IMG/VR virus record: IMGVR_UViG_3300023184_000586
Location: 1-21,471 of that record
Reading direction: 5' to 3' (one strand)
From: a virus
DNA: 21,471 nt
In this document: piece after piece, positions 1,869 through 21,471 of the stretch
Position numbering within the stretch: the first letter of the stretch is position 1
Layout of the letters: the number at the start of each line of letters is the position of its first letter
Translations under genes and position numbers: made by a program
The notes under the pieces: model-generated
Told to the model about the DNA's origin: nothing
The model's database searches: none
What the model saw: the letters and a program-made list of their open reading frames with translations, nothing else

Positions 1869-4231
1869 TATTGTCTCTTAGGTGCATTATGAAATCTACC
1901 GGCACCAGGGTTTTTACTTTTACCATCCAATGTGAATCCAATGTTAAATTCAGGTTGTGGATAAGCTAATACATCAATACCATTTGAACTATCAATTGCA
2001 ATTTCACCTGCTTTTACTAATTTTCCACCACCTCTATCTTCTTTTTGTGATAAAACTGAATCGTTTGCAAAATCTTGTACATCTACATTTTGATTATATG
2101 CTTCATGTGCTAAGTTAGTATAGATATAATATGATTCTAAACGCATTTTAATTTTAGCTAATGTATCCTTATCAACTGGTAATCCGGCTCTACTTCTTTC
2201 TAATGCAATACCACCCAATGCAGATGCTATTTTTTTAGCCGCTCTACCACCTGGTTTCATTTCTGCTTCCATTTGTTTAATAAATGCAGGATTTACATTT
2301 AATTCTAATGCTTTCTTTTTAATTTCAGATTGGTATGTATCGTTTAATTTTTTATGGTCTGCTGCTGGTTTATCCATAGCTAATCCATATGGTACATTGT
2401 GTGATTCTGATAATGCGATTACACCCTTTTTAATCAATCCTTTCGGGTCATTTTTGTATGTAGATTTTCTTGTTTTTGAAGTCAATGCACTTGCACCACC
2501 TACACCTTTTTTAACACTTCTACCATCTAATGTTACAATTCTATTTGTTCCTAAACCATCACTAACCGTAATTACATCTACTGTTTCTAATGTTTGTGAT
2601 TGTGGTAATAACGCACATTTACCATGTTCTGTTCCGTTACCATTATCTTGCATTTCTTTGATTGCTACAAATATTTCTGCGTAGTTTGCCCATCCTTCTC
2701 TTAACGATGGTTCACCTTCATGATTAGCTACCTTAGATAAAATATGTTCAAAATCTTTCAACCATTCTTTTGGATTTTTATTAGGGTCTCTTTTACTAAA
2801 ATTATCTAATACCGTAATTAATGCTAATGTTTCTTTATCAGCAATCATTGCCTTATCTGCTAATACTTTAAAACGATTTGCCATACCACTAATAGCATTT
2901 TGAATTACTATTACTCTATTTTTAGGAGAATCAGGAACTACACCTTTATCCATGTCAATAAAGTCCATATCATTCGCTTCAATCTTAGCAGAATATTCTT
3001 CTAAATTTCTATTATTTCTTTCTCTTAATTTCTTTTCGTTTGGTTTAATTCCTTTCTCATTCGGGTCTAATCGTATGATATTTAATCCCCCAATCTTAAC
3101 TGATTGCACTACACCATTTTTATCTTTATTTACTTTTGCTGCACCTTTTAATAATCTAGTATTTCCTTTATCATCTGTAAATGTTTGATTAGCTGTTGTT
3201 TTCTTTCCACCAAATGTCGATGTTGATAATTCAGGAATACCATTTTTAGTTGCCCATTGTCTAAATGCTCCGATTATTGGAGTTGATTTATCTTTTGCAC
3301 CAACATATACTCTACTTCTTTTATCTTGTCCAGCTGTTTTGAATACACCAGGTTGACGGGCGATATATATTTTACATGCGTTTGGATTTGCATCGGTTGG
3401 TTCTGCTACTCTAACATATTGTGCTAATAATTTTTTCTCACTTGCACTTAATGGAGTTCCACTAAATAATTTTTGCAAAGATGCTTTTACTGCGATATGT
3501 GCTTTTTGATTAGGATTTTTTTTATCTTTAATAAATTTATCCACTTCCGTATACACACTTTTAATTGCAGTTACTACGTTATCTTTACTTGTCTTAGTAT
3601 TTTTATTATCTTCAAATCTACCAAATACATCCTTCAATGAACCACTTAAATTAACATTAACAGGTTGTTGAACCGGTGCTGATTTTTTAGTTGGTGCTGC
3701 AGTTGGAGTTTGTGGTTGTGCTTTTTGTTGCGGTTGTGGTTTTGATACTACTTTAGATTGTGGAGTAACTTGTGGTTTTGGTTTAGCATAGTATTGTGGT
3801 TCTTCCGGATTAGGGTCATCTATCATATCCACATTTTTTTCACTATAACCTGCTCCTTTTAACATTGCAGCTGCTGCGTGATATGCTGACCTTGCACCAC
3901 TACCTTTTTGGTCTTTGTAATTTAAAGCTGATGCAACTGTTACTTCTCGACCTGTATCTGAATTTTTTACTTTCTTTTTTAAGATTGCTGCTAACTTAGG
4001 GTCAGTACCATCTTTCTTAGGTCCTTCTAATGTAAATTTCTTTGGTGCTAAACTAATAGCTTCCATCAATTCAATATCCGTAAATGCTTCTGCACCGAAT
4101 TGTTCTAATACTGAACGTAAATGTTCTAATTGTTCTTTGTTATCAAAGTTTGGAATTGGATATGTAACACAAAATTCTGTTAAAACCTCATCAATAATTT
4201 CACTAAGATTGTCTAAATTAAAGTTCATCAT
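1868..4231 (-). CDS. Large hypothetical protein, 787 aa, probable virion-associated
   Basis: I cannot assign a family. Residues 1-60 look helical and acidic. Residues 72-138 are lysine-rich and include GSGARSAYHAAAAMLKGAGY. Residues about 138-192 form a low-complexity linker rich in P, Q and K. The remaining 590 residues are globular-looking with K/N-rich charged patches, including one basic helical segment PGGRAAKKIASALGG, and end in GRFHNAPKRQ. There is no signal peptide or transmembrane segment. Two consecutive ATG codons open the frame (4231 and 4228). The start overlaps the polymerase-like gene by 14 bp. Its size and linker suit a structural or ejected virion protein, but an enzyme with a disordered arm is possible. 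A motif resembling the late promoter (4303-4312) lies 71 nt upstream. Confidence 0.72.
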   Translation of the reverse strand: MMNFNLDNLSEIIDEVLTEFCVTYPIPNFDNKEQLEHLRSVLEQFGAEAFTDIELMEAISLAPKKFTLEGPKKDGTDPKLAAILKKKVKNSDTGREVTVASALNYKDQKGSGARSAYHAAAAMLKGAGYSEKNVDMIDDPNPEEPQYYAKPKPQVTPQSKVVSKPQPQQKAQPQTPTAAPTKKSAPVQQPVNVNLSGSLKDVFGRFEDNKNTKTSKDNVVTAIKSVYTEVDKFIKDKKNPNQKAHIAVKASLQKLFSGTPLSASEKKLLAQYVRVAEPTDANPNACKIYIARQPGVFKTAGQDKRSRVYVGAKDKSTPIIGAFRQWATKNGIPELSTSTFGGKKTTANQTFTDDKGNTRLLKGAAKVNKDKNGVVQSVKIGGLNIIRLDPNEKGIKPNEKKLRERNNRNLEEYSAKIEANDMDFIDMDKGVVPDSPKNRVIVIQNAISGMANRFKVLADKAMIADKETLALITVLDNFSKRDPNKNPKEWLKDFEHILSKVANHEGEPSLREGWANYAEIFVAIKEMQDNGNGTEHGKCALLPQSQTLETVDVITVSDGLGTNRIVTLDGRSVKKGVGGASALTSKTRKSTYKNDPKGLIKKGVIALSESHNVPYGLAMDKPAADHKKLNDTYQSEIKKKALELNVNPAFIKQMEAEMKPGGRAAKKIASALGGIALERSRAGLPVDKDTLAKIKMRLESYYIYTNLAHEAYNQNVDVQDFANDSVLSQKEDRGGGKLVKAGEIAIDSSNGIDVLAYPQPEFNIGFTLDGKSKNPGAGRFHNAPKRQ

Positions 4232-5564
4232 AATTTTTACCGGTGGTTGTTTTTATTTGATATCTACCATGTCCACCTTTTAATATAGGTATTATATCAC
4301 TATATAAATATTGTTTTTCTGTCGGATAAACATCAAATACAAATGCATCGTAAGTATATAATATCAATTTTGTTTGTTTTCCTTCTAATTTCTCTTTTAT
4401 TTTTAATATTTTTTTTATATTTCTTTCAGTTTCGTATGCTTGGATATAATAATTAAGAACTTTTGCGGGAGTTATAGGTTCTAATCTTTCAATACCAAAC
4501 TGAATATGATATGAATGCGTAAAGATTGCTTTGTTTTTTACCATTGTTTCTGATAATAAGTCAGTAAGATGTTGTATCTCTTTAAAATATTGAATATCTA
4601 ATAACTCACTTCTAATCCCACCATATAAATTTTGGAATATTAAAGTTTTTACTTCGTTTCTATCATCAATACCAATTTGATTTCCAATCCATGTATAAAA
4701 ATCTAACCCACTACCATAGAAATCTTTCATCCATTGCATTTCTTTTACATTTGCAGTTGAATTAAGTTTCATTTGGTAAATAATATCCATCAATAATCTC
4801 GGATGATACGCTTCATAATCACAACTAATCAATTCACCACCATCAAATCTACTTATAAATGCTTTTCTTTCACCGGTATCTTTTTTAAGTGCAGCATAGT
4901 TTACACCCCCATAACGATTCGATGGTCGGAGTGTAGATGTCATTAGGTTGTATTGAGTGTAAACCATATTATCCTTCGTTAAATGAACTGGATTGTAGTT
5001 TAAAACGTAATCCGGATCTACCTTTAATCCACTACTTTCAATATAACTAAATGCCTTTGTTACATCATCTATATATTTAATTGAATTTTTGTTTACATTA
5101 AGTGAAAACTTAGAAACATATTGTTGTATAAGTTCTATTTGTTTAACCATTGGAATACTATCATTCAAATATGGTTCACCTTTAAACTTTGATTTGTAAA
5201 ATTGATTTAATTGGTTATCACCCAATTCAATATCGTGATAACCATACTCAATAAATTTAGCTAAATCTACATCAAACCCTTTGGTAAAATTTAATATTTG
5301 TGAAATTGCTTTGTAATTAAAAATTAATTGAGGATGTATTGTATCTAATAATTGATGTAATGCTTCTACTTTAATTCCTAACCCATCACCATTGTTTACA
5401 TTTATAACCCACTCATTCGTTTTTGATTTGACATAAATAAAAGATATACGATTGTTCATCACATGCTTTTCATCATCTGATAATCTAACATATATTAAAT
5501 TAGTATGTTTTCTATATTCAATTAAGAAACTTTGAAATTCGAATTTATCTTCTACAAATATCAT
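4218..5564 (-). CDS. Divergent family A DNA polymerase-like protein
   Basis: A 448-residue protein with the palm/fingers motifs of family A DNA polymerases. TLRPSNRYGGVNY (211-223) matches the TxRLSSxxPNLQN template-binding segment. Motif A is CDYEAYHPRLL, with catalytic D249 and R256. Motif B is RNEVKTLIFQNLYG with R302, K306, F310 and Y314 in the exact R-x3-K-x3-F-x3-YG spacing. Motif C is YTYDAFVFD with D406. Two usual residues differ: the position of E. coli Pol I Glu710 (steric gate) is H254, and the Glu after the motif C Asp is A407. The first 180 residues are where a 3'-5' exonuclease would lie, but no DxE motif is seen, so this part looks degenerate or unrelated. It is smaller than Pol I. 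It may be an active specialised polymerase or a derived protein. Confidence 0.75.
   Translation of the reverse strand: MIFVEDKFEFQSFLIEYRKHTNLIYVRLSDDEKHVMNNRISFIYVKSKTNEWVINVNNGDGLGIKVEALHQLLDTIHPQLIFNYKAISQILNFTKGFDVDLAKFIEYGYHDIELGDNQLNQFYKSKFKGEPYLNDSIPMVKQIELIQQYVSKFSLNVNKNSIKYIDDVTKAFSYIESSGLKVDPDYVLNYNPVHLTKDNMVYTQYNLMTSTLRPSNRYGGVNYAALKKDTGERKAFISRFDGGELISCDYEAYHPRLLMDIIYQMKLNSTANVKEMQWMKDFYGSGLDFYTWIGNQIGIDDRNEVKTLIFQNLYGGIRSELLDIQYFKEIQHLTDLLSETMVKNKAIFTHSYHIQFGIERLEPITPAKVLNYYIQAYETERNIKKILKIKEKLEGKQTKLILYTYDAFVFDVYPTEKQYLYSDIIPILKGGHGRYQIKTTTGKNYDEL
4303..4312 (-). promoter_or_regulatory. Possible late-promoter-like motif inside the polymerase gene
   Basis: The coding strand reads AATATTTATA, close to the recurring (G/T)ATATTTATA element. 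It lies within the 3' end of the polymerase-like gene, 71 nt before the 787-aa gene. Chance occurrence is quite possible in such AT-rich DNA. Confidence 0.25.
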
Positions 5565-5636: not shown

Positions 5637-6419
5637 CTATTCACCCCAATGTTTGATGCGTAATTCTTTCATATCGATTGGCTCTCGTTTCATATGCCCA
5701 CCTTTTGAAAAATTAGCGCCTCTCTTTAAGTAACCACCTAATAGATTTCTTCTCATTCTATTAGATGTATTTGTCTCGGAACCATGAACGTTATGTGAAT
5801 GTAATAACACCACTTGTCCTTTTTTTAATATTCCTTCTAACTTTCTGAAATCATGTCCTTCAGGCATAACACATGGTTTACCTCGTTCATTACTCCAAAA
5901 TGCTGGATTTGTTTTTGTTCTTTCATCATCAACTTCAATTGGTAAAATTGGTAATCTATGTGTTCCTTCGTAAACCCATACTGAACCATTACCCGCATCA
6001 TGATTATCTAATGCTAACGCAGTGTTGATAATTTCATTGTGACCACATTTAGTATAAAATGCATTTTGATGTTGGTCTCTACCTAATTGTCCTGGTGGTT
6101 TAAAGTAACACCAATCTTGCATACCATCAATTTCACCACCCATTAGATATTCTACTGCTTCCAAAATCTTTGGATGTGCAAAATACTTTTCTAACATTGG
6201 TGAAAGTTTATGTGGATATGCAAATGGGTCCCATTCACCCCAAATTTTACCATCAGGTGCAACTGTTCCCGTTCTTTCATTTCTTAAACGGTCTAACTCG
6301 TCGTTAATCACATCACACTCTTCTTCGGTAAGTAATTCTAAAACGGTAAATCCTTTGTATCGCCAATCAAACGTAATTTGTTGGACTTCTTCTTCGCTAA
6401 GATGTTTTAACTTTGCCAT
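5637..6419 (-). CDS. Phytanoyl-CoA dioxygenase (PhyH) family protein with H-x-N metal site
   Basis: A 260-residue member of the PhyH group of Fe(II)/2-oxoglutarate oxygenases. Recognisable parts are DWCYFKPPG (102-110), the first metal-ligand segment QHQNAFY (116-122), the strand INTALALDNHDAGNGSVWVYEGTH (131-154, equivalent to the family's D-x-G-x-L-x-V-x-PGSH), then VVLLHSHNVHGSETNTS with the second metal histidine, probably H212, and R221-R224 as candidates for binding the 2-oxoglutarate carboxylate. The usual ligand triad is H-x-D...H. Here the carboxylate position is N119, codon AAT, one base away from GAT. The protein has no signal peptide. It is monocistronic, with a promoter-like motif upstream and a terminator downstream. 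Substrate is unknown. Phage PhyH proteins are common in aquatic T4-like phages. Confidence 0.85.
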   Translation of the reverse strand: MAKLKHLSEEEVQQITFDWRYKGFTVLELLTEEECDVINDELDRLRNERTGTVAPDGKIWGEWDPFAYPHKLSPMLEKYFAHPKILEAVEYLMGGEIDGMQDWCYFKPPGQLGRDQHQNAFYTKCGHNEIINTALALDNHDAGNGSVWVYEGTHRLPILPIEVDDERTKTNPAFWSNERGKPCVMPEGHDFRKLEGILKKGQVVLLHSHNVHGSETNTSNRMRRNLLGGYLKRGANFSKGGHMKREPIDMKELRIKHWGE

Positions 6420-16282: not shown

Positions 16283-16771
16283 TTAGAACTCTAAGATTGC
16301 GTAATCGTAAGTTAAAGTTAATGATATCATAACTGGATCGTTTGAACTCCAATCTACATCACCAAACTCTGCCGAAGAAATCCAAGCACCAACAATTTTC
16401 CATTGTTCTACTTTATCACCAACAGGCCCTAACATATAGAAATCGATATTCTTTTTATAGAAATCTGCATACCCGTCTCTACCAGTGATAGATTCGTGTC
16501 CACTTCTAATCCATTCCATTACTGATTGTGCACCACTTGGTACAATTGGGTCATATAGAGTGATAGTGATATCAGTCCAATTTGATTTACCTTTAATTTT
16601 TCTCTTTAAGTTGATATGGTCTAATTCTACAACTTCACTTTCTAACTTAGGTCTGTTTGCTGTTTTAATCATGAAAGATGGAATACCATCGATTTCCATG
16701 ATGAAACGATTTGCTAACTTTGGTTCAAAGTTTGTATAAAATATCTTATCAAATGATAATACGTCAGCCAT
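16283..16771 (-). CDS. Tail tube protein (T4 gp19-like)
   Basis: A 162-residue protein almost the same length as T4 gp19 (163). It shows the T4-type tube features: N-terminal YTNFEPKLANRFIMEIDGIPSFMIKTANRPKLES, a VELDHINLKRKIKGKSNWTDITITLYDPI core, then IRSGHESITGRDGYADFYKKNIDFYMLGPVGDKVEQWKIVGAWISSAEFGDVDWSSNDPVMISLTLTYDYAIL, the strands forming the hexameric tube. This is one of the safest identifications in the window. AAGGAG lies 13 nt before the ATG. It follows the sheath gene and ends before a terminator, so it can be highly expressed. Confidence 0.95.
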   Translation of the reverse strand: MADVLSFDKIFYTNFEPKLANRFIMEIDGIPSFMIKTANRPKLESEVVELDHINLKRKIKGKSNWTDITITLYDPIVPSGAQSVMEWIRSGHESITGRDGYADFYKKNIDFYMLGPVGDKVEQWKIVGAWISSAEFGDVDWSSNDPVMISLTLTYDYAILEF

Positions 16772-16814: not shown

Positions 16815-19103
16815 TTATGCGTTAAAAGTTGCCCCAGTTGGTAAAACATTGAAATCAATTTGAATGAATTCAGCAGTTTTAGTTGGTTGTAAGAATATTG
16901 CACCTTTTAAGATGTTTCTATCGATTACGTCTGGAGTGTTATTTGTTTCATCCATTACAACTTTGAATGCGTATAAACCTTGTCTTTGTTGAATGTTCTC
17001 TAAATAAGGGTTAACCGTATTTAAGAATTTAGTTCTTGTATCAGTTGTATTTTGTTCGAATATTAAGTATCTACTAGTTGAAGCAATATACTTCTTAACT
17101 GTTATAAGTAATCTTCTAACATTAATTCTATCTAATGCTGATGGTCTAGCTTGTAAGGTTTTTTGTCCAAATGCTACGATACCTTGTCCAGGGAACTGAG
17201 CGATTGGATTTACTTTTCCTTCATATAAAGTATCTCTATCAGAATGCGTTAATCTATCTAACACTGCTACTGCACCAGTGATACCACCTCTATTCAAACC
17301 TGCAGGCGCAAACCATTCAGCCGATGTAGCATCATTTGCTGCATAAACTCTAGGTAATAAAACTGATGGTGGAACTGCAATTAATTTGTTTGTGTTTGTA
17401 TCAATTGTTTTAACCCAAGGATAGTAAACCGCTGCATAGTTAGTATCTAATCCTTCTGCTACACTTACTACCGTTGCGATACCAGCACTTTGTCCTGCTG
17501 CATCCATAATATAGAATGTATCAGCTCTATTCTCACATATATCCATTGCATATTGAGTTACATTACTATGGTCGTTATGATTAACACCAGGTAATACTAA
17601 TAAGTTAATATCCCACTCATCTACATTTGATAATGCATCTAAACATTTTTTATATGCTACTGAACCACTTGCAGCCGAATCAGATAAATTTAATCCTTGA
17701 ACGTTTCCAGAAGTAATATCTGTTCCTTTATTAGAAGTAATTGTTGGGTTTAAACCATCAAAACCACCTTGGAAAGCAATTGTAAATGTTCTATATGATA
17801 CTATATTTGCATTTGCGTTTGCACTTAAAGGTAAACCTACTAATGTATCTAACGAGAATATTGAATTATTTCCATTATATCCTAAAGTTTCAGTTAATGG
17901 CTTTAAGAAAAGAGTATTATCAGCGTTATCTAAATTGATACCACTTGCATAAATAGATGAACTATATGATGCGGTTGTAAATGTTACACCAGGTAAATTA
18001 GCTAATTCAGCAGATGAACCACTTATAAAGTTTTCATATGCAGCGTGTGCGTAAGGTACTGCTGTTACCGGATACAAATCAGAATCTTTTGTTTCAACTC
18101 TAATGTATTTAGATTTATTAATCCAATCACCAATTGTAGTTACTTTACCATAAGAATCAATTGTACTTACTTCATCACCGATTACTCTAGCAATATAGTT
18201 AGTTGAAGTTGGGTCTAATGATAAATTATTATATTGTTCTAAAATGTTTTGTCTTTTATCTGTATCATCAAATTTTCTAACATATAAAGAGAAAGTTCCG
18301 TAATCAGAACCATTGATATCTCCTGCTGCTTTGATGTTACCAATAGTAACTTTAAATCTTGTATTTTCTACGTTACCATCTGCTAAAGTATGTATGCGGA
18401 ATAAATCATATCTTAATCCACCCATATCTTGTGATTTAATCCAAGGTGTAGAAGCGTAAGTTGCATCGTATGTGAAATTTTGGTCACCCAATGTTACATA
18501 ACTTACATTTGCATTACTTGCAGTATTAAAACTTGTGTATGTAGTAGTTGCTGCATCAGAAAAATATCCATATACATACGCTTCTTTTGTTCCTAATGGT
18601 GAAGTACCAAATACGTCATCTACTGATTGTGTTGATGATGGAACTAAGGAAGTTGCATACGAACCACTAAGTGTTAATCCACCTAATGAAAAATTGCCAC
18701 TATTAGCTGTGTTTGAACTTGCACTAAAAGCAGTTGAAAAACCTGCAGTATCCGTATCTGTATTAAATAGTATTGCTACTGATTTAGATACTGATGCTGA
18801 TGATATAGTTAATAACACAGGATTTTGTTCGGTATATCCACCGATACCTGCTACTCTACAAATAGTTACTAAACCAGTCTCTCTTAAATAATTTTGAGCG
18901 GTTAATTCTGTATAATATGTACCATCAGCTGCACCGAAGATATCTTCTAACTCAGATGGTGATGTTACGATTGTTGGTTTAAACGCCGGTCCTTGTTTGA
19001 AAGGTCCTACGATTGCTCCACCAATAGCACCTACTCCTTGAGCTATGAATGATAAATCGTTTTCTCTTGTAAATACGCCCGGCGATACTAATTTTTCAGC
19101 CAT
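16815..19103 (-). CDS. Tail sheath protein (T4 gp18-like)
   Basis: A 762-residue contractile sheath protein. The N-terminus SPGVFTRENDLSFIAQGVGAIGGAIVGPFKQGPAFKPTIVTSPSELEDIFG is the classic sheath start that docks onto its neighbour. The C-terminal third has the conserved sheath core: INLLVLPGVNH, TFYIMDAAG, VAVLDRLTHSDRDTLYEGKVNPIAQFPGQGIVAFGQKTLQ, and INVRRLLITVKKYIASTSRYLIFEQNTTDTRTKFLNTVNPYLENIQQRQGLYAF. Middle residues (about 100-450) form an S/T-rich insertion likely exposed on the outside. It is longer than T4 gp18 (659). An AAGGAG lies 10 nt before the ATG, and a promoter-like motif lies 40 nt upstream. Confidence 0.95.
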   Translation of the reverse strand: MAEKLVSPGVFTRENDLSFIAQGVGAIGGAIVGPFKQGPAFKPTIVTSPSELEDIFGAADGTYYTELTAQNYLRETGLVTICRVAGIGGYTEQNPVLLTISSASVSKSVAILFNTDTDTAGFSTAFSASSNTANSGNFSLGGLTLSGSYATSLVPSSTQSVDDVFGTSPLGTKEAYVYGYFSDAATTTYTSFNTASNANVSYVTLGDQNFTYDATYASTPWIKSQDMGGLRYDLFRIHTLADGNVENTRFKVTIGNIKAAGDINGSDYGTFSLYVRKFDDTDKRQNILEQYNNLSLDPTSTNYIARVIGDEVSTIDSYGKVTTIGDWINKSKYIRVETKDSDLYPVTAVPYAHAAYENFISGSSAELANLPGVTFTTASYSSSIYASGINLDNADNTLFLKPLTETLGYNGNNSIFSLDTLVGLPLSANANANIVSYRTFTIAFQGGFDGLNPTITSNKGTDITSGNVQGLNLSDSAASGSVAYKKCLDALSNVDEWDINLLVLPGVNHNDHSNVTQYAMDICENRADTFYIMDAAGQSAGIATVVSVAEGLDTNYAAVYYPWVKTIDTNTNKLIAVPPSVLLPRVYAANDATSAEWFAPAGLNRGGITGAVAVLDRLTHSDRDTLYEGKVNPIAQFPGQGIVAFGQKTLQARPSALDRINVRRLLITVKKYIASTSRYLIFEQNTTDTRTKFLNTVNPYLENIQQRQGLYAFKVVMDETNNTPDVIDRNILKGAIFLQPTKTAEFIQIDFNVLPTGATFNA

Positions 19104-19175: not shown

Positions 19176-19427
19176 TTATTGTTGTTCTTTTGGTGTAAAT
19201 TCTCCGGTGGTGGTATCTAAATCTCCATCTCCGTATTCTTTTTGAATTTCAGATAAGAAATTTTGTTCTTCTACACCTAATTTTTCAAACTCTTCAAACA
19301 TATTTTCTTCATCAAGTTTTAATTGTTTTTGTTGAATTTGATTTTGTCCTATAATGAAAGTTAATTCATTAAATTTTCCCTTTAGTTCTTTTACTTTTTG
19401 TAACTGCTCTGGTTTGATTTGTGCCAT
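19176..19427 (-). CDS. Small coiled-coil phage protein, 83 aa
   Basis: An 83-residue protein with a heptad-like charged helix (residues about 5-65: VKELKGKFNELTFIIGQNQIQQKQLKLDEENMFEEFEKLGVEEQNFLSEIQKEYG) and a short acidic, threonine-rich tail. I recognise the general type, a small coiled-coil protein often found near structural genes in environmental T4-like phages, but not a named family. It has its own promoter-like motif 25 nt upstream and lies between the Hint-containing protein and the sheath. Virion or assembly role is inferred from position. Confidence 0.75.
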   Translation of the reverse strand: MAQIKPEQLQKVKELKGKFNELTFIIGQNQIQQKQLKLDEENMFEEFEKLGVEEQNFLSEIQKEYGDGDLDTTTGEFTPKEQQ

Positions 19428-19483: not shown

Positions 19484-21130
19484 TTATAATCCGTATCTAC
19501 CTTTTAAATTGTTCCAAATATATCCTATTTCAGTTGCAGTTAATGCTCTTTGATAGAATAAGAATGAACCTAAATTACCGGTATTGTTTTGCATTAAATA
19601 AATATCAGATGTTCCAGTAGTTGCTGCTGCAGTTGTTGATGCCGTAGCTGCTTCTACATTATTATTATATATTTTTGTTGTACCTGCTCCAGCGGTAACT
19701 GCAATCATATGCCATCCTGTTAAAGTTTGCGATGCTGCTGTTAGGTTTCCGTTTGGTGTTGATGTAAATGCAATATTACCACTTGTTGTTACTTTATAAT
19801 CAGTACCTCTGCTAAATATATCACCTGCACTACCATTCACCCATGCAATAATAGTATATCCATTTCCAGATGTTGTATTAAAGTTTGCATTTCCAGTACC
19901 ACTACTATATGCTTGTTCTTTAATACCATACTTACCACTTGCAAATGTTAATGATTTTGGTGATGTTCCGTTGAATACAGGTGCCGTAACTGCTGGATTT
20001 GCAGTTCCACCGGTTAAGTTAAACCCAGTTGAATATCCTGCTACATCATTAAAGTTTGTAGTTGAAACTGCTGTGTTATAAGATGCTGCAAATTGTGGCT
20101 CTAAATAACATACTAAATTTGTCCAAGGTATTGGTGCAGTTGCTGCTCCTTTATTATGTGAAACAAATCCATTAGCTAAATAAGTATGTGCCGTATCTAC
20201 TGTGATTGTTGCAATTTCTAATGTTTTGTTTAGAAATTCTATTTTTTCTACTAATACATCTTCTACTAATCCACTTTCTACATTATACTTTACAATTTTA
20301 TCACCTTCAACTAAATCTTCTGCTCTTGTAAATTGATAAGTTTCAGTAATATTATCCCATGCAAAGAAGGGATGTGCTCCAGTTACCTTTATTGCACCGA
20401 AATTAATATCAACATACTTATCAATAAATGAATAATATACATTACTAACCGCTGCATCTACGATATCACCATTAGAACCTGTTTCGTTGTACCACCAATA
20501 CCATTCTGCTGGATCATTTTCAGGAAACCATTCTGGCATTCCAGTTGGTACAAATGTTTTAATACTATCACCAATATATAAATCACCTGCTTTTACAGTT
20601 GAACCATTTGCTAATAAAATATCAGTATCAGTTGCTACACATAATACATCTGAATTGATTGAGTTATATGAATCTACTGAATAAATAGTTTTTGTTGATG
20701 TTGTATTGTAATTGGTTGCATTTATATTATATCCATCGGCATAAGTAACTGATAACGTTGTACCATTACTACCACTATATGTTGAACCACCTAAATTATT
20801 TGCCGTAATTGCAGTTGTTGAACTTTTTGTACCAATACTAAAATAGGTTGCATCACTAACTGTAATAGTATAGTTTGCTGCAATATTTTTAATTCTGTTA
20901 TCAAATGCTAAACCTTGTGTAGCAAATGCCACTACAACGTTTTCAGATGTGTTTTCTACTATATAAGTAAATGGTTGAGTTACTGTCAAACTATCAAATG
21001 CAAATGAACTCATAGATACTGATGTACCTGCTAAATTATTTGCTGCATTTAATGAAGATGATACCGCACCTCTTGCTGTACCTGTCCATGCTCTATACAA
21101 TCCACCTAAACTTAAACTTGTCTTTGCCAT
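19484..21130 (-). CDS. Hint-domain virion protein with LamG-like C-terminus
   Basis: A 548-residue protein with three parts. Residues 1-163 are S/T/N/G-rich and beta-like. Residues 164-326 form a Hint (intein-like) domain: C164 VATDTDILLANGSTVKAGDLYIGDSI (block A), VTGAHPFFAWD with T250 and H253 (block B), then VDTAHTYLANGFVSHN ending at H325-N326 (blocks F/G). Residues about 380-548 resemble a LamG/concanavalin A-like carbohydrate-binding jelly roll, with YTIIAWVNG, GWHMIAVTA, TKIYNNN and the helix ALTATEIGYIWNNLKGRYG. The residue after HN is K327, not C, S or T, so normal protein splicing is not expected; self-cleavage is. The gene has an AAAGGA ribosome site 12 nt and a promoter-like motif 23 nt before the ATG. 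It may be a tail or fibre-like receptor-binding component. Confidence 0.84.
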   Translation of the reverse strand: MAKTSLSLGGLYRAWTGTARGAVSSSLNAANNLAGTSVSMSSFAFDSLTVTQPFTYIVENTSENVVVAFATQGLAFDNRIKNIAANYTITVSDATYFSIGTKSSTTAITANNLGGSTYSGSNGTTLSVTYADGYNINATNYNTTSTKTIYSVDSYNSINSDVLCVATDTDILLANGSTVKAGDLYIGDSIKTFVPTGMPEWFPENDPAEWYWWYNETGSNGDIVDAAVSNVYYSFIDKYVDINFGAIKVTGAHPFFAWDNITETYQFTRAEDLVEGDKIVKYNVESGLVEDVLVEKIEFLNKTLEIATITVDTAHTYLANGFVSHNKGAATAPIPWTNLVCYLEPQFAASYNTAVSTTNFNDVAGYSTGFNLTGGTANPAVTAPVFNGTSPKSLTFASGKYGIKEQAYSSGTGNANFNTTSGNGYTIIAWVNGSAGDIFSRGTDYKVTTSGNIAFTSTPNGNLTAASQTLTGWHMIAVTAGAGTTKIYNNNVEAATASTTAAATTGTSDIYLMQNNTGNLGSFLFYQRALTATEIGYIWNNLKGRYGL

Positions 21131-21145
21131 ATTATTGTTTTCCTT

Positions 21146-21471
21146 TTAACTATTATAAATATCTAATAAACTATTAACCCATTTGTTTCTGTCTGAATAC
21201 TCTAACATATATTCTTTTATTTTATTGAACCAATGTTTTTTATATTCGTAATCACTATTTTTAATCCATTGTATTGTTCCTTCAAATTCAGTTTTAGTAT
21301 CTGCTCTAAAAGGATATACCCAATCTTTCATCCAATCTTTACTCAATATAGGTAGTTTTCCATAATCAACCGCTTGAAATATTGAATATCCAAATGGTTC
21401 ATAATTAAAACAACTATGTGAAATTCCCCAATCTAAACGATAAAACCAATCTAACTTACTATAATCAAACA
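21146..21471 (-). CDS. C-terminus of a GT-B-like glycosyltransferase (partial)
   Basis: An open frame enters from the right edge and ends at 21146. About 108 residues are visible, beginning FDYSKLDWFYRLDWGISHS. The segment EPFGYSIFQAVDYGKLPI matches the C-terminal donor-binding motif of GT-B glycosyltransferases (E-P-F-G-x6-A-x2-G-x-P-I), with Q in place of the usual second E. After it comes SKDWMKDWVYPFRADT, then a helical C-terminal end with KIKEYMLEYSDRNKWVNSLLDIY. A TTG at 21346 could look like a start, but the frame continues upstream with clear glycosyltransferase sequence, so it is internal. Substrate is unknown; phage glycosyltransferases modify DNA, tail fibres or host surface sugars. 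Confidence 0.72.
   Translation of the reverse strand, partial: FDYSKLDWFYRLDWGISHSCFNYEPFGYSIFQAVDYGKLPILSKDWMKDWVYPFRADTKTEFEGTIQWIKNSDYEYKKHWFNKIKEYMLEYSDRNKWVNSLLDIYNS
21154..21163 (-). promoter_or_regulatory. Late-promoter-like motif GATATTTATA inside the glycosyltransferase end
   Basis: The coding strand reads GATATTTATAATAG, encoding the final DIYNS of the glycosyltransferase and lying 23 nt before the ATG at 21130. Promoter and upstream gene end overlap. AAAGGA follows before the start codon. Confidence 0.6.

Follow-up and report, generated by a model that had tools for sequence, protein, structure and literature searches.

Among Hint domains, splicing through a lysine side chain is reported, in the literature accessible to us, for one ciliate locus only. 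There, in the polyubiquitin-like BUBL1 locus of Tetrahymena, the BIL2 domain, one of the bacterial intein-like (BIL) domains, is reported to splice via an isopeptide bond with a lysine side chain (PMC8616854). For a BIL domain without nucleophilic side chains, trans-splicing is announced in the title of a paper cited in PMC7664689. Here we analyze a Hint domain encoded by a virus, in which the residue directly after the terminal His-Asn (the +1 position) is a lysine. It lies within a 548-residue protein of the virus record IMGVR_UViG_3300023184_000586, whose full 21,471 bases constitute the window analyzed. The gene and its parts, all on the minus strand, are as follows:

19484..21130, minus strand: whole gene, 548 residues from an ATG start, with an immunoglobulin (Ig)-like N-terminal part, a Hint domain and a LamG domain (open reading frame (ORF) and AlphaFold2 model)
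20642..21130, minus strand: N-terminal flank, residues 1–163, with short N-terminal helices followed by an Ig/BIG2-like beta domain at about residues 42–155 (predicted local distance difference test score (pLDDT) of the model, 86)
20153..20641, minus strand: Hint domain, residues 164–326 (structure match to 6y75_A, Z 18.6)
20639..20641, minus strand: Cys164, first residue of block A (invariant in 95 distinct relatives)
20372..20383, minus strand: block B, T250-x-x-H253 (Thr and His invariant in the 95)
20147..20161, minus strand: end of block G and junction, S324-H325-N326/K327-G328 (five consecutive invariant residues)
20150..20152, minus strand: Lys327, the +1 residue (Lys in 95/95 distinct relatives)
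19526..19876, minus strand: LamG/ConA-like core, residues 419–535 (Pfam PF13385 above its cut-off)

Fold, motifs and relatives of the phage Hint domain

An earlier sequence-only reading of this stretch had placed C164, T250xxH253, H325-N326 and K327 at these positions and deduced fragments of 163, 163 and 222 residues, all of which agree with the ORF translation. Its description of a Hint domain flanked by a virion-type part on the N-terminal side and a LamG part on the C-terminal side also holds, and the gene stands within a tail gene cluster. Profile evidence from the single window protein is clear for the LamG part, where Laminin_G_3 passes its Pfam cut-off at residues 419–535 (29.4 bits vs 27.6), and modest to weak for the Hint part. 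There, Intein_splicing (residues 244–326, 21.4 vs 35.8) and PT-HINT (19.6 vs 27.7) remain below their Pfam cut-offs, while of the NCBIfam models intein_Cterm exceeds its own (18.3 vs 15.6) and intein_Nterm falls short (19.9 vs 24.5).

The AlphaFold2 model of the whole protein, built on 76 sequences, has a mean pLDDT of 83. In this model, residues 164–329 match BIL2 (6y75_A) with a Z-score of 18.6 and a root-mean-square deviation of 1.9 over 141 residues, followed by the DnaB intein (1mi8, Z 17.9) and hedgehog (6tyy, Z 17.8). Matches to BIL, intein and hedgehog structures span Z 17–19 overall. The LamG part of the model (residues 337–547) matches 5hon with Z 19.1. Modeled alone, residues 1–163 match a phage SU10 tail protein and the lambda gpV Ig domain at Z 7–8, and with these middling scores the predicted structure of the N-terminal part looks Ig/BIG2-like. 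Chance resemblance to a Hint domain is ruled out by the predicted fold together with the family-wide invariance of the motifs.

Residues 164–326 have the predicted fold, the Cys of block A, the TxxH of block B and also block G, and the domain is thus a Hint domain by both fold and motifs. BIL2 (6y75, 6tmm) is its best structure match, inteins scoring within 1 Z of it, and also its best profile match (E 0.0016), at 19% identity over the aligned residues. The two differ in their surroundings: BIL2 is a ciliate domain flanked by ubiquitin-like domains, which define BUBL, whereas the flanks of the phage domain match Ig-like and LamG folds. Type A BIL domains (e.g., 2lwy from Clostridium thermocellum) share with it the first Cys (C1), TxxH, the terminal His-Asn and the lack of Cys, Ser or Thr at +1. 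However, the phage family has a fixed Lys-Gly at +1/+2 where a set from bacterial genomes is varied (K, D, A, S, N and others), and on account of this fixed +1 residue we keep the domain apart from ordinary type A BIL domains. The hedgehog autoprocessing domain (1at0, 6tyy) shares the Hint fold and the logic of an N-side thioester, but in the phage protein the Hint domain ends in His-Asn and is followed by a LamG domain, in the place where Hog proteins carry a sterol-recognition region. Nor is it a class 1 intein, which has C/S/T at +1 (here Lys in 95/95), a type B BIL domain, which lacks the terminal His-Asn (here invariant), or a class 3 intein: Cys164 is present, block F of the window protein (residues 304–323) has no Cys, and position 315 is His or Asp. 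That position is His in 26/95 and Asp in 69/95 relatives, with one switch on the tree.

Jumbo phages (Phage NCTB; Erwinia phages Yoloswag, Y3 and Alexandra; Yersinia phage fHe-Yen9-02) have distantly related Hint domains, at ~25% identity. Their proteins are annotated as virion or tail-fibre proteins, in line with the tail-module setting here, but they differ in having a terminal Hint domain, a collagen-like N-terminal part and a +1 residue that in most is T, V or A. In Phage NCTB (L208, 4960–6941), a Hint domain ends the collagen-like protein and is immediately followed by a separate ORF consisting of a lone degenerate Hint domain that ends HN-KVD.

Relatives were collected from viral contigs using peptide patterns taken from other parts of the protein, or queries cut off at His-Asn, to avoid motif bias. 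The scans gave 46, 80 and 80 loci, each being limited to the best 80 matches at most, and the resulting family set comprises 95 distinct full-length proteins, the window protein included. When the family Hint domain served as query, a first scan of genomes found no relatives. All 95 proteins have the three-part architecture of Ig-like N-terminal part, Hint and LamG, at identities to the window protein down to ~34%. Positions invariant among them include C164, T169, D183, G187, D188, T250, H253, P254, S324, H325, N326, K327, G328, I334 and P335.

Parsimony on the tree gave, as codon changes/amino-acid changes, 20/0 for S324, 19/0 for H325, 11/0 for N326, 3/0 for K327 and 20/0 for G328, as well as 35/0 for T250 and 11/0 for H253; the C164 codon is TGT in every relative. 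A further scan added 79 loci, with Lys-Gly in every one in which the junction is present, and across 101 distinct family Hint domains the +1 residue is Lys and never Arg. Because Lys327 is invariant while its codon has changed synonymously, the sequence evidence indicates that this lysine is selected, and is not the relic of a lost nucleophile. The sequence-only reading had concluded from the missing C/S/T at +1 that the domain cleaves without splicing; with Lys at +1 in 95/95 proteins and in all 101 Hint domains, despite synonymous changes, that conclusion was too strong.

Two other explanations of the fixed lysine were considered and rejected. A lack of divergence is out, as both AAA and AAG occur among the relatives and the neighbouring codons carry 11–20 synonymous changes. 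A recent loss of the +1 nucleophile is out as well, as the lysine is common to groups only ~34–38% identical to the window protein. Two copies of the gene are broken (L043, 1942–3600; L256, 2170–4082), with a deletion or frameshift within the Hint domain that splits the frame and may be an assembly error.

Residue +1 in other Hint domains

In surveys of other Hint domains the queries ended at His-Asn, so that the +1 residue could not bias the search. A generic intein-type G-block query listed 80 viral loci, of which ~77 have C/S/T at +1 and three have Lys. These three belong to two protein families that are not enzyme-like; the two whose N side is complete carry C1, the block B His and an oligo-glycine stretch ahead of C1.

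Further counts were made on 60% clusters, with a Hint profile run over all loci; such clusters do not amount to independent lineages, and relatedness to a few seeds guided the surveys. Within these bounds, viral Hint domains outside the family that retain C1, the block B His and the terminal HN (44 clusters) divide at +1 into K (25 clusters), R (8), C (5), S (2) and other residues (4). Lys or Arg thus occupies +1 in 33/44 clusters with intact C1 and TxxH vs 1/8 of those lacking C1 or the block B His (Fisher p 0.0015; p 0.0002 once C/S/T are excluded). Hint domains from bacterial and archaeal genomes are more varied at this position (K 13, D 9, A 7 and S 3 of 44). Domains with Arg+1 mostly lie between consecutive Hint domains, and 9/14 have Pro at −1, where this residue is expected to make the N-side reaction slower, so these domains may have a defective N side. 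Hint domains of Ruminococcus phages (L598, L599), which have unrelated C-terminal domains, were left aside.

Viral Hint domains that lie at the end of their protein and retain C1 and TxxH form 17 clusters at 70% identity, an eighteenth entry having been left out as not a Hint domain, and the +1 residue is Lys in 14. Ten of the 17 stop exactly after HN-K, and no other single final residue was seen. These HN-K-stop ORFs, all with intact catalytic motifs, are L379, L380, L439, L440, L447, L470, L471, L474, L497 and L513; in L379 and L439, the two checked, Pfam and NCBIfam both confirm Hint/intein domains. As one lysine cannot serve as a C-terminal domain, it is most simply read as part of the Hint machinery.

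Large ORFs of uncultured phages were also seen to carry two to four Hint domains in a row, with spacers mostly of 0–10 residues (LPPK, AP, KG, KF, RF). Such arrays occur in 44/76 distinct ORFs of one survey, at loci including L439, L442, L444, L445, L447, L470, L474, L486 and L497. In several arrays, read by eye, the first Hint domain lacks C1 and the block B His.

Candidate ligation to Lys327 and rival explanations

From the motifs, their invariance, the predicted fold and the selected lysine, we infer a candidate series of chemical steps, which we favor tentatively: a type-A-BIL-like Hint domain would pass its N-terminal part to Lys+1 and be freed by Asn cyclization. With the assistance of T250 and H253 of block B, a thioester would form between Cys164 and the carbonyl of L163, an amine of Lys327 would accept the N-terminal part, and cyclization of Asn326 would cut N326–K327 to release the Hint domain. 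This would yield a virion protein of ~385 residues, Ig-like plus LamG, joined through the lysine, either at its side chain (isopeptide) or at the alpha-amine bared by Asn cyclization. The conserved C1 and TxxH imply thioester formation, and the conserved HN implies Asn cyclization. A domain that cleaves only on its N side needs no HN, and one that cleaves only on its C side needs no C1, so the retention of both with a fixed Lys fits a coupled ligation. Likewise, HN ahead of a terminal Lys would be kept because Asn cyclization would release the Hint domain from a Lys-branched intermediate. The preference for K/R at +1 among viral Hint domains with intact motifs also speaks for this proposal, and BIL2, nearest in fold and profile, offers a published precedent for lysine as acceptor. 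Two observations weigh against this proposal. The jumbo-phage Hint domains have T, V or A at +1, and eight other viral clusters have Arg, which is no nucleophile at normal pH. The latter weakens a strict nucleophile model, and positive charge at +1 may be what counts rather than a strict amine role. An extension of the ligation proposal, possible but doubtful, is that such domains form a widespread class of phage-virion Hints with Lys+1 as a dedicated acceptor, splicing through an ATP-free side-chain isopeptide at virion assembly and including the HN-Lys ORFs and the arrays of two to four Hint domains.

Double cleavage, the outcome put forward in the sequence-only reading, is nearly as likely as ligation to the lysine. 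The thioester would be hydrolyzed and Asn326 cyclized to leave three fragments, with Lys+1 and Gly+2 kept to speed cyclization or to serve the new N-terminus. Such an outcome accords with BIL domains without C/S/T at +1, which are reported to yield mainly cleaved products (PMC7664689), and the Arg+1 found elsewhere is consistent with a charge role; what it leaves unexplained are the ORFs ending in HN and a single Lys, and the Arg-free invariance of Lys in the 101 family domains. A hedgehog-like transfer, in which C164 hands the N-terminal part to an amine or other nucleophile on a virion or host molecule and the Hint–LamG half departs, appears unlikely: pure N-side transfer has no need for a conserved HN and K+1, and no recognition region follows the Hint domain, even though many related Hint domains are C-terminal in large phage proteins and BIL2 is reported to conjugate its N-flank to other proteins (PMC8616854).

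That the Hint domain is inactive and acts as a structural spacer is a somewhat less probable explanation again. The candidate activity is read from sequence and a model, and the two broken gene copies would fit this view, but C164, T250, H253, H325 and N326 never vary, although the codons of all except C164 show synonymous drift. Least credible is an ordinary mobile intein that recently lost its +1 nucleophile. The intein-like motifs and fold would be expected of one; against it, Lys+1 is old and invariant, 163 residues are too few to accommodate a homing endonuclease, the protein that carries the domain is no conserved enzyme, and no Hint-less allele was found among the best 80 loci per scan, a weak absence.

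If Lys+1 were the acceptor, phages would possess a built-in route to virion proteins linked by isopeptide bonds that needs neither ATP nor helper enzymes, and many natural Hint domains with a lysine acceptor would become available as tools for ligating proteins. It would also allow a direct test of whether Hint domains lacking C/S/T at +1 can splice, and of the reason for retaining them. Even if cleavage is all that occurs, the strict Lys and the HN-Lys-stop ORFs mark a recognizable subclass overlooked by standard annotation. We found no description of Lys+1 Hint domains or Hint arrays in phages in the literature searched, with many subscription papers lying outside that search.

Genomic setting of the Hint gene

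Sheath, tube and baseplate genes lie downstream of the Hint gene in the window. Its neighbours, all on the minus strand, are:

21146..21469, minus strand: C-terminal part of an unannotated protein (332–334 residues in relatives), just upstream of the Hint gene (gene order in L026, L003, L040 and L042)
19176..19427, minus strand: 83-residue ORF between the Hint gene and the sheath gene, in group 1 only (ORF list and gene order)
16815..19103, minus strand: tail sheath, the next major gene downstream (Pfam and PHROG)
16283..16771, minus strand: tail tube (Pfam and PHROG)

Four relatives, two per group, share a common gene order: fibre-like genes, the gene for 332–334 residues, the Hint gene, the small ORF (group 1), sheath and tube. 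In the two relatives checked by profile, the fibre-like genes encode S74-type tail fibres. Given this gene position and the domain content of the protein, we infer that the Hint protein is very likely virion- or tail-associated.

The upstream protein (21146–21469 in the window) had no Pfam match. By eye, a likely relative of its gene is present in a 484-kb phage (L213, 4469–5500), beside a terminal-Hint protein that ends HN-KH; a search that used the L213 protein as query gave no relative. Elsewhere in the window, adjoining APS-kinase-like and nucleotidyltransferase-like ORFs (626–1462) correspond to the two halves of one PHROG family, phrog_10255. The tail/baseplate cluster includes a 448-residue protein with partial DNA polymerase A similarity only (4218–5564), and a PhyH-type dioxygenase gene (5637–6419) lies within the baseplate cluster.
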